Part shown: one piece after another, positions 31,787-33,909 of the stretch
Layout: the number at the start of each line of letters is the position of its first letter
Position numbering within the stretch: position 1 is the first letter of the stretch
Assembly: GCF_018860915.1 (NCBI RefSeq)
Contig: NZ_JAHKQD010000047.1
Span: 186,001 to 250,000, forward strand
DNA from: Colwellia sp. C2M11
GTDB lineage: Bacteria > Pseudomonadota > Gammaproteobacteria > Enterobacterales > Alteromonadaceae
DNA: 64,000 nt
Direction of reading: 5' to 3'
Program-made: the position numbers and the translations under genes
The notes under the pieces: generated by a model
Told to the model about the DNA's origin: nothing
The model's input: only the letters and a program-made list of their open reading frames with translations
The model's database searches: none

Positions 31787-31999
31787 ATGTCGTTATTTTT
31801 AGTGTTTTTAGGCACATTATTAAGCGTTGTTTGCGGTGCCTTTTTCTATTGTCAGGCATTAGTTGCAGGTTTTGATCGTAAACGATGGACTGTTGCTGGA
31901 ATAATATTTGGCCCGCTTATATGGCCGATGTTTGTTATGAAAAAGCGTATGCGGTTAAATAGCTTGTTTGGTTTTGAACAGCTTATTTTTAGGGCTTAG
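31787..31999 (+). CDS. Small two-helix membrane protein
   Basis: A 70-residue protein starting with ATG after a GAGGAA site. It has two hydrophobic segments (about 2-25, and 34-49 'WTVAGIIFGPLIWPMFV') separated by FDRKRW, and a basic MKKRMR patch after the second helix. It resembles small membrane proteins found beside other genes in Alteromonadales, but no family can be named. A perfect 13-base stem follows at 32045-32078, supporting it as a real gene. Confidence 0.6.
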   Translation: MSLFLVFLGTLLSVVCGAFFYCQALVAGFDRKRWTVAGIIFGPLIWPMFVMKKRMRLNSLFGFEQLIFRA

Positions 32000-32119: not shown

Positions 32120-32150
32120 CAAATAAAAGATAAGTTATTAATAACTTATC
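32120..32150 (-). terminator. Terminator of the repeat-peptide unit
   Basis: Positions 32129-32138 and 32141-32150 are a perfect 10-base inverted repeat with a two-base centre. Read on the minus strand it is followed by TTTTATTT, as for an intrinsic terminator. It overlaps the stop codon of the 36-residue ORF, so it would end the leftward transcript that begins at the repeat gene. Confidence 0.65.
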
Positions 32151-32256
32151 TCCACCAAGTATTGGCAGAGGTTTCTTTTATTTCGATACGAGCAGCAATA
32201 GGGTTACCTTTTTTAGCTTTGCTAGTATTGAAAAACGATTTTAATAAGTTGAACAT
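32146..32256 (-). CDS. 36-residue peptide ORF downstream of the repeat gene
   Basis: Too short for a standard ORF list, but well framed. The ATG at 32256 has an AGAGGT ribosome site about seven bases before it, and the frame ends in TAA at 32146-32148, inside a terminator hairpin. The peptide begins MFNLLKSFFNTSKAKK, an amphipathic basic start, continues GNPIAARIEIKE and ends ETSANTWWR. It has no signal peptide and no cysteine. It lies 34 bases after the repeat-protein gene on the same strand and would share its transcript. It may be a leader-plus-core peptide, a membrane-active peptide or a small regulator. No modifying enzyme is adjacent. Confidence 0.5.
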   Translation of the reverse strand: MFNLLKSFFNTSKAKKGNPIAARIEIKETSANTWWR

Positions 32257-32290
32257 GGTTGACCTCTGAAATTAAACTTATTTTTAAATA

Positions 32291-32707
32291 TTAAAGTCTA
32301 CGAGAGCCACGTTTAGCACTAGCTTCTTGCACATCTAGGTTAAATTCATCACTTAAACGACGAGAGCCACGTTTAGCACTAGCTTCCTGAACATCTAGGT
32401 TAAATTCATCACTTAAACGACGAGAACCACGTTTAGCACTAGCTTCTTGCACATCTAGGTTGAATTCATCACTCAAACGACGAGAACCACGTTTAGCACT
32501 CACTTCTTGAACATCTAAATTAAATACATCGCTTAATCGGCGAGAGCCACGTTTAGCACTAACCTCTTGAACATCTAAATTGAATTCATCACTTAATCTA
32601 CGAGAGCCACGTTTAGCGCTAACTTCTTGAATATCTAGAATATTAGCATCTGCTGCTGGAACAGGTGAAACTGACATCGCCATTGAAAGTACAATTGAAC
32701 TTAACAT
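32291..32707 (-). CDS. Secreted six-repeat polypeptide, possible multi-copy peptide precursor
   Basis: A 138-residue protein with a good AAGGAA ribosome site. Residues 1-21 look like a signal peptide (MLSSIVLSMAMSVSPVPAADA), although the usual basic start is missing. All the rest is a tandem repeat: six copies of D[V/I]QE[V/A]SAKRGSRRL joined by five SD[E/V]FNL linkers, a 20-residue period. Each copy has KR and RR basic pairs. The first three copies have V and the last three A at the variable position. The protein ends exactly at the end of the sixth copy. No known family is recognised. A role as precursor of repeated small peptides, or as a repetitive surface or nucleic-acid-binding polymer, is inference. 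Confidence 0.75.
   Translation of the reverse strand: MLSSIVLSMAMSVSPVPAADANILDIQEVSAKRGSRRLSDEFNLDVQEVSAKRGSRRLSDVFNLDVQEVSAKRGSRRLSDEFNLDVQEASAKRGSRRLSDEFNLDVQEASAKRGSRRLSDEFNLDVQEASAKRGSRRL
32294..32635 (-). repeat. Tandem 60-base repeat, six copies
   Basis: The 42-base core recurs at exact 60-base intervals: 32294-32335, 32354-32395, 32414-32455, 32474-32515, 32534-32575 and 32594-32635. Copies at the left (C-terminal) end are nearly identical even at silent positions, while those at the right differ more. This suggests growth by unequal exchange or slippage from the 3' end of the gene. Confidence 0.95.
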
Positions 32708-32955
32708 GTATTTTTCCTTTTATAGTTATTAGTTGGTTTAAGATTCATTTCCAATAGGAGTTATGCTTAAACTATGCCAATGAACTATTTATTTAGGACA
32801 TGTTATCTCTTTAATTACTGTTAATGGGTTACGTTTAATGATTTTAAAGGGCTATACCTCCCTTAATATAACATCAATAACTTTATTTTAAGTTGTTGAT
32901 ATTTAATCTTTAGTTGCGATTTTAAATATTTTTATTAATGGTAGTTAAGTCTAAA

Positions 32956-33909
32956 TTACATTGTAGTTAGGTTATTTTTAACAAAGCGCCAAGCAATAAA
33001 ACGACTGACTTTTTGTCCTTGAGCCATGTTAAAAACTTTAATTTCTGACGCTTTCGCTTTTTTTAGCGATAACTTTATTTTAGATAAATGATCTTTATTT
33101 GACACTAAACAGGTAAACCAGAGCACTTGGTTTTGAAAAACGATACTTTCTTTGATCATTTGACGAATAAAGGCCAATTCTCCGCCTTGACACCATAACT
33201 CAGCTTTTTGACCGCCAAAATTTAATGTATCTACTTTATGCTCTTTTTTACCCGCTGTTTTGCCTTTATTTAGGTTTTTCCATTTACGGTTAGTGCCTGT
33301 TGCAGCATCAGTTAATGATTTATGAAATGGAGGATTACATAAAGTGACATGATAAAATTCATTTGGTTTAATAATACCTTCAAAAATCTTAGTGCTGTTA
33401 TTTTGCAAGCGACAGTTTATTTGCTGCTTAATTTTGGGATTGGCATTAACATTTGCATTTGCCGCTTTTATAGAGACGGGATCTATATCTGAAGCGACAA
33501 AAGACCAATTATATTCACTAGCACCTAACATAGGATAAATACAGGTAGCACCAGTACCAATATCTAATACAGAGATTTTACTGCTAATGGCTTTATTCTT
33601 TTCCGCTATCAATGCCTTACTTTCTTTCAATAAGTCAGCAAGGTAATGTATATAATCAACACGCCCAGGAATAGGAGGGCACAAGTAGCCTTGAGGAAAG
33701 TCCCAATGATCTATTTGATAATGTTTTTTTAATAAAGCAAGGTTTAAGGCTTTTACTGCATCAGTATTGCTAAAATCAATGGTATCTTGTTGATTATACG
33801 GGTTTTTTATAATAAACGCTGATAAGGGAGTATGGACCTTTTTTAAGGTCGCAAAGTCGTAGCCATGACGATGTTTATTACGTGGATGTAATATGGTTTT
33901 TATAGTCAT
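32956..33909 (-). CDS. rlmF: 23S rRNA (adenine-N6)-methyltransferase RlmF
   Basis: Methylates A1618 of 23S rRNA using S-adenosylmethionine. The SAM-binding region is VLDIGTGATCIYPMLGA and the catalytic motif NPPFH is at residues 192-196. The basic N-terminus (LHPRNKHRHGYDF) and the C-terminal RFIAWRF are typical. Length 317 matches the 308 of E. coli (YbiN). Its ATG overlaps the stop of the upstream gene by one base (TAATG). Confidence 0.93.
   Translation of the reverse strand: MTIKTILHPRNKHRHGYDFATLKKVHTPLSAFIIKNPYNQQDTIDFSNTDAVKALNLALLKKHYQIDHWDFPQGYLCPPIPGRVDYIHYLADLLKESKALIAEKNKAISSKISVLDIGTGATCIYPMLGASEYNWSFVASDIDPVSIKAANANVNANPKIKQQINCRLQNNSTKIFEGIIKPNEFYHVTLCNPPFHKSLTDAATGTNRKWKNLNKGKTAGKKEHKVDTLNFGGQKAELWCQGGELAFIRQMIKESIVFQNQVLWFTCLVSNKDHLSKIKLSLKKAKASEIKVFNMAQGQKVSRFIAWRFVKNNLTTM

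Follow-up and report, generated by a model that had tools for sequence, protein, structure and literature searches.

A putative multi-copy peptide precursor that accompanies a Reg_prop/Y_Y_Y c-di-GMP receptor in Colwellia and related bacteria

Peptide pheromone systems of Gram-positive bacteria have a small precursor gene beside a receptor gene, with a conserved leader and a peptide that varies between species. The precursors of yeast alpha-factor and of animal neuropeptides carry near-identical peptide units and spacers behind a leader. Gram-negative bacteria, to our knowledge, are usually thought to signal by small molecules and not by plain peptides, and we know of no ligand for most c-di-GMP receptors. 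Among receptors of related design, the Reg_prop/Y_Y_Y sensors of Bacteroides bind oligosaccharides and signal via a histidine kinase and receiver, according to one paper (PMC3243724). A Reg_prop/Y_Y_Y outer domain is joined to a c-di-GMP enzyme domain in the Xanthomonas proteins GdpX2 and GdpX3; the table that covers these proteins lists the function of the outer domain as unknown, and no peptide gene is mentioned in the passages that treat them (PMC6637768). A further candidate for a close precedent was set aside, as its sensor is a PAS-MCP protein (PMC7930318).

The window, i.e. the whole stretch of 64,000 nucleotides of Colwellia sp. C2M11 DNA that was analysed, contains a repeat-protein gene (A) and a small partner gene (B) that in relatives usually adjoin a receptor gene (Table 1). 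With the Gram-positive pheromones this arrangement shares a putative precursor gene linked to a dedicated receptor, and a conserved leader followed by a variable peptide; it differs from them in the propeller GGDEF-EAL receptor, the multi-copy precursor, gene B, the sigma-54 promoter and the Gram-negative hosts. Gene A resembles the alpha-factor and neuropeptide precursors in its design of units, spacers and leader but has no conserved dibasic sites, and a sequence relation is not claimed. The receptor has the Reg_prop plus Y_Y_Y ectodomain architecture of the Bacteroides hybrid two-component sensors (4a2l, 3v9f); unlike these it carries only PAS, GGDEF and EAL domains, without histidine kinase or receiver, and a putative peptide gene accompanies it. 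In joining this outer domain to c-di-GMP enzyme domains it is similar to GdpX2 and GdpX3.

Table 1. Features of the A-B locus in the window, and the receptor gene of the same genome
Feature	Position	Strand	Remarks
Gene A, putative precursor	32291..32707	-	138 aa, leader plus six units
Leader of A	32636..32707	-	Residues 1-24; first 12 residues conserved between species; candidate export signal
Tandem array of A	32300..32638	-	60-base unit; proposed peptide core SAKRGSRRL after D[IV]QE[VA] spacer
Gene B	32146..32256	-	36 aa, ends WWR; conserved partner of A
Hairpin, then T-rich stretch	32126..32153	-	Possible terminator, weak; contains B stop
Sigma-54 (-24/-12) promoter of A-B	32763..32780	-	TTGGCATAGTTTAAGCAT; 73 bases before A start
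Gene C	31787..31999	+	70-aa putative membrane protein, convergent; usual far-side neighbour of B
rlmF, 23S rRNA m6A1618 methyltransferase	32956..33909	-	Occupies receptor-gene position of relatives; outside the system
Receptor gene of the window genome	G000:C54:143241-147737		Other contig, outside the window

The ATG start codon of A is preceded by AAAGGAAAAATAC, and the leader reads MLSSIVLSMAMSVSPVPAADANIL. The rest of the protein repeats D[IV]QE[VA]SAKRGSRRL six times, with five SD[EV]FNL links in between, which makes six near-identical units of 20 residues; it ends exactly at a unit boundary, as first noted. TRF reports a single array at the position given in Table 1, with a period of 60, 5.7 copies and 89% matches. 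The proposed core was set by comparison with relatives. Uncorrected pN/pS is 0.10 for A between the window genome and the nearest relative found; five array units compared with one another give 0.075. The corresponding value for B against its nearest relative found is 0.097, from only 7 changed sites; the last 20 codons of B give 0.116 over nine relatives. Because these ratios are low and relatives are many, A and B are taken as more than chance. Both reading frames of the initial annotation look like real genes.

A signal peptide had also been assigned to A. The leader is indeed hydrophobic, and an export role may be inferred for it, but a classical n-region is lacking: K or R occurs at residues 2-5 in none of 50 class I relatives. 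Classical-looking signal peptides are found on A relatives in two other families, f6 and f16.

The ATG of B is preceded by GAGGTCAACC, and the gap between A and B is 34 bases. Its TAA sits in the 5′ arm of the hairpin, whose stem is A+T-rich. The earlier description of this stop as lying inside an intrinsic terminator holds for the hairpin; the terminator itself is plausible rather than secure, in that the fold is unremarkable (-11.2 kcal/mol for a 71-base stretch, z -1.31, with 26 of 200 shuffles folding equally well). Rfam gave three matches, all under the gathering score, and no riboswitch. Upstream of rlmF is a gene for a DUF2947 protein (PF11163; 33909-34385, minus strand).

A and B are not a local oddity. 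They recur in the family, and A is found in four further families of the order and B in three of those. A search for A in 39 genomes of the window's genus found it in 15. The relatives have a similar leader, followed by units that resemble one another inside a genome and vary from one genome to the next; examples from the genus are GAKRGTRRL, GSKRGTLRI, GHGRGTRRL, GHRRGDVRI and DRKRRDVRI. The class I set comprises 50 distinct A proteins gathered by leader pattern, which at least L003, L004 and L069 missed; these are in no count except the later promoter check. Mean pairwise identity in class I is 0.62 over the first 12 residues vs 0.30 over the last nine, and in class II 0.73 over the leader vs 0.19 over the last nine. 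Class I endings are distinct between species in 47 of 50 cases, and the best second copy of the ending inside one class I protein has an average identity of 0.89. The last three class I residues are mostly [VI]-R-[IL], and a unit end that often reads [VIL]-[RK]-hydrophobic is a recurring feature of A relatives. Class II A reads MLKAYAVALALTTAAPVA... and has mostly one unit, with endings SVRI, SVRF, GVRL, GKHW and others. The number of units ranges from 1 to about 30.

The repeats had been read either as a multi-copy peptide precursor comparable to eukaryotic prohormones or as a repetitive secreted polymer. Variable copy number, the existence of single-unit forms, uniformity within a genome and divergence between species argue for a precursor over a structural polymer. 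Prohormone-like processing at KR and RR finds no such backing, as dibasic sites are not conserved: past the leader a dibasic pair is absent in 16 of the 50 class I and 30 of 47 class II relatives; GIPNVKF and GFPNIKV are examples of repeat units that contain none. The search for relatives that the initial annotation had proposed shows both conserved A-B pairing and changing unit number, and its overall interpretation is partly supported.

That annotation overlooked the sigma-54 promoter and, more importantly, the receptor gene; in G000, the window genome, the latter lies outside the window. An element of the -24/-12 type (GG-N10-GC) is present upstream of A in all 50 class I relatives, 54 to 91 bases before the start, and three more A genes outside the 50-protein set also have it. 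Among 200 mononucleotide shuffles the average is 0.9 of 50 (maximum 4), and the reverse strand gives 3 of 50. A and B form an old conserved pair behind one promoter, in agreement with the suggestion that both are on one transcript. Further upstream a palindrome, GTGTCA-N6-TGACAC, is common. The form GTCA-N6-TGAC with at most one mismatch occurs in 32 of 50 upstream regions, with an average of 1.6 over five shuffle rounds; its words were picked after viewing the sequences, which makes this a descriptive count. The window itself has no recognisable copy of the palindrome. As a wider regulon in ten genomes it gave 18 matches vs 24 for the reversed control, with 4 matches each in G000 and G022 vs 0 for the control. 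Across seven genomes 79 sigma-54 activator domains were listed, and among the 50 that were clustered none is specific to A-bearing genomes; two groups present in all seven genomes are presumably NtrC-like and PrsR-like.

The large gene that precedes A-B in the same orientation codes for one orthologous receptor in 29 of 31 larger loci, and the two exceptions (L073 and L074) sit at contig ends. Beyond C, these loci have fadJ and fadI. The receptor has the Pfam domains Reg_prop, Y_Y_Y, PAS_3, PAS, GGDEF and EAL, arranged as a periplasmic Reg_prop/Y_Y_Y propeller and a cytoplasmic PAS-PAS-GGDEF-EAL part. Its ectodomain matches the solved sensors 4a2l (phmmer E 2.3e-63) and 3v9f (6.4e-59), and its output part resembles the ‘Motility regulator’ 4rnh and others. 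The AlphaFold2 ectodomain model is mainly beta (mean pLDDT 86.5, pTM 0.81), and the construct has a helix at residues 782-801, the expected position of the membrane segment. The receptor of the window genome has intact GGDEF, EAL and DDFGTG motifs. Both genes are retained in G000 and G022, where the receptor is not linked to A. Over 91 pairs of 14 receptors, mean identity is 0.55 for the ectodomain vs 0.78 for the cytoplasmic part. Faster divergence of the ectodomain is expected if the receptor tracks a changing ligand; rapid change of outer domains is generally common in receptors. The charge of the units and that of the ectodomain show no correlation among 24 receptors (rho -0.25, p 0.25).

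Within the genus, the receptor ectodomain is present in 17 of the 39 genomes, and these are exactly the genomes with A, i.e. the 15 from the A search and two more, G005 and G021, in which other searches revealed A and B. Eighteen of the 22 genomes that lack the ectodomain were searched with the B profile and all are without B; G012, G024, G029 and G038 were covered by the A and receptor queries only. Many of these 22 absences may share one loss.

In the family, the cytoplasmic part of the receptor as query finds matches in 317 of 395 genomes. Class I receptors (bits 969 or more, 65-100% identity) occur in 83 genomes, of which 75 have B; B without a class I receptor is seen in 3, of which G338 looks spurious. 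Class II receptors (60% identity or less) include full-length forms and forms of about 680-900 residues that have no ectodomain. The 3′ flanks of 105 loci were examined, nearly all of class II, in a non-random sample of rows with printed coordinates and genera of interest. Full-length receptors are followed by a sigma-54 site and a leader ORF in 51 of 58 loci; the A of G328, detected with the class II A profile, lies 3.8 kb further on, which brings the full-length loci with A to 52 of 58. Receptors without the ectodomain keep GGDEF-EAL, and A is found in 0 of 47 such loci. Weak promoter-like matches occur at six of the 47, and at one of the six an unrelated ORF is present. True A genes were confirmed in G102 and G178; the ORF at the truncated receptor of G096 is not A-like, and in the truncated genomes G055 and G119 the class II A profile gives matches only at E 0.18 or worse. 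Full-length receptors without A are found at 3 of 3 g3 loci, with no A genome-wide in four g3 genomes, and at three g29 loci, whose receptors at 47-51% identity are perhaps not orthologues.

In a tree of 97 receptor cytoplasmic parts, truncation corresponds to six changes. Five independent pairs can be drawn on supported branches; A is concordant in 4.7 of them on average and never opposite. The sign test on five pairs gives p 0.0625 and cannot pass 0.05 at that number, and the raw Fisher p of 1.7e-22 for A vs ectodomain ignores kinship. It should be pointed out that a single deletion does not explain the joint loss, since the ectodomain-coding end is farthest from A and the intervening GGDEF-EAL part stays. 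At L151 (G307) and L150 (G060) the ectodomain-less receptor directly adjoins C, with no room for A-B. The g52 relatives of G307 still have A and B.

In other families of the order the receptor is present at cut-off in 57 of 197 genomes (20 of 79 genera). Every one of the 12 loci of f6 genus g57, which judging by gene content may be Shewanella, shows a leader ORF and a sigma-54 site; units stand in tandem at 11 of them, and G516 has a single unit. Examples of the units are TAGIPNVKFKPLQ, repeated about 30 times, AGFPNIKVLDTQT and AGSPHIRYT, and two of these loci (L256, L259) are cut by contig ends. Family f20 has A at 4 of 4 full-length loci, with units such as RVIIRYAQQDEQ, RIPVRFEP and RIQIRISPE, and no A at two truncated-receptor loci. 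In f16 the gene is at another chromosomal site; 6 of 6 proteins start with a classical-looking signal peptide and end in WRKIKF-like sequences, two of the loci are at contig ends, and the truncated-receptor genome G477 has no A. Family f15 has a leader ORF at 5 of 5 loci, three with a strict sigma-54 site, and mostly acidic endings. A receptor-like gene without A is seen at all 5 f7 loci examined (of 12), in G405 of f4 and in G431 of f6 genus g79.

The B profile matches 78 of the 395 family genomes (19 of 52 genera), and A precedes B at the loci of other genera. Of 11 named records matching B, nine are titled Colwellia, one Litorilituus and one Oligoflexia. The last, L050, is titled uncultured Oligoflexia but has B, C, receptor and fadJ/fadI in a locus like that of Colwellia; it is likely misbinned. 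B follows A on the same strand, usually with the convergent C next. Beyond class I, relatives of B come after A in f6 (9 of 10 examined), f20 (4 of 4) and f15 (5 of 5), so the pairing is old. B is absent from f16 (0 of 5) and from class II (0 of 10), where A is mostly single-unit. Common endings of B are LEVIxAxxWW or IEIKExxAxxWW. Genus g52 often has two tandem, diverged copies of B (L057, L058, L059, L062). C, with the motif FFYCQA..KRW..AG..FGP..WPMF and no match to a known family, has matches in 300 of the 395 genomes of the family, from 43 of 52 genera. As this distribution is far wider than that of A-B, the system probably does not require C.

Those A and B proteins that were searched gave nothing over the curated cut-offs of NCBIfam and only weak matches in PHROGs. 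PF18333 (ssDNA_DBD) scores 28.6 bits on A against a cut-off of 25, but no single stretch passes; the best one covers only 19 repeat residues, and the match is therefore regarded as a repeat artefact. Six unit strings are in no paper of the full-text literature searched, and searches of that literature, which lacks most subscription journals and preprints, found no description of the system. The earlier remark that no described bacterial family with this unit is known is borne out by the curated libraries and this literature. The A-B-receptor system is real, widespread and, as far as full-text searches show, undescribed.

We think it probable that A is a multi-copy precursor of a short peptide ligand for the Reg_prop/Y_Y_Y receptor, which would feed into c-di-GMP. 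A comes and goes with the outer sensing half of the receptor, and so is probably the receptor's own signal. The proposal starts from what can be read in the genomes: the layout, the promoter, the units, the linkage, the joint loss with the ectodomain, the joint retention without linkage, and the intact GGDEF, EAL and DDFGTG motifs. A and B would be transcribed by sigma-54 RNA polymerase. The hydrophobic leader would carry A across the inner membrane, and there or outside A would be cut into short peptides whose free C-terminus is often [VIL]-[RK]-hydrophobic, in this genome about SAKRGSRRL. Such a peptide would bind the periplasmic propeller of the orthologous receptor, here the one on contig C54, and the PAS-PAS-GGDEF-EAL part would then alter the c-di-GMP level, in whichever direction. 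B may be an accessory, mostly where A is many-unit, that acts in processing, export or modulation. The signal could serve the producing cell or the population. Several points count against a ligand: some full-length receptors occur without A, the sign test on five pairs falls short of 0.05, the charges of units and ectodomain do not correlate, no A-specific protease, exporter or sigma-54 activator was found, and class I leaders are without a positive n-region.

Joint presence could also arise if A were an output of the receptor's c-di-GMP signal and did not act on the receptor, i.e. a secreted effector such as a matrix component, an adhesive or an antimicrobial. c-di-GMP commonly controls matrix and adhesins, and a secreted, repetitive, basic protein that adjoins a GGDEF-EAL gene and has its own regulated promoter would suit such a role. 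An output gene should not need the outer domain, however, and the truncated receptors keep their GGDEF-EAL output yet are never accompanied by A; as single-unit and acidic versions of A are also ill-suited to a polymer or a cationic antimicrobial, we regard an effector as unlikely. Joint loss and linkage would be accounted for equally well if A remained uncut in the envelope as a repetitive partner subunit of the ectodomain, a tethered regulator and not a diffusible signal, and class I leaders without K/R might anchor the protein rather than be cleaved. A unit number from 1 to about 30, with unit sequence little changed within a protein, and the classical-looking cleavable signal peptides of the f6 and f16 relatives make a tethered subunit improbable in our judgement.

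We give little credence to hitch-hiking, whereby A-B would be a mere old neighbour of the receptor, kept or lost with the locus and without a functional link. Most loci do go back to a single ancestral site with receptor, A, B, C, fadJ and fadI, and genus genomes without A mostly also lack the receptor and C; yet the receptor part that is lost is the one farthest from A while the part between stays, the pair persists at the other site of f16 and unlinked in G000 and G022, and in G060 and G307 C remains beside the truncated receptor after A is gone. That A is a RiPP with several cores, e.g. lanthipeptide-like through its FNLD stretch, appears very improbable. The design of a leader and a variable core would fit, as would a weak NCBIfam match to gallidermin/nisin leaders (26.7 bits vs a cut-off of 29.3), but FNLD (in the spacer, region 32455-32480 and other units) is not kept in relatives, other A relatives have no lanthipeptide match, and the neighbours are fadJ/fadI and the receptor, with no maturation enzyme among them.

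If A is the precursor of a peptide ligand, Reg_prop-GGDEF-EAL receptors would have their first class of ligands, and since units differ from species to species, cells could recognise members of their own species. More tentatively, the genes may represent a so far undescribed peptide language among marine Gram-negatives: multi-copy precursors under sigma-54 control would release species-specific peptides, a propeller receptor dedicated to them would make or degrade c-di-GMP in response, and B would be a dedicated helper in maturation or export. Such a conserved pairing of peptide and receptor, spread over at least five families of the order, would define a class of ligands and would predict, for each genome, a peptide open to synthesis and addition to cultures. 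It would also connect the sensing of self with the change, controlled by c-di-GMP, between attachment and swimming.
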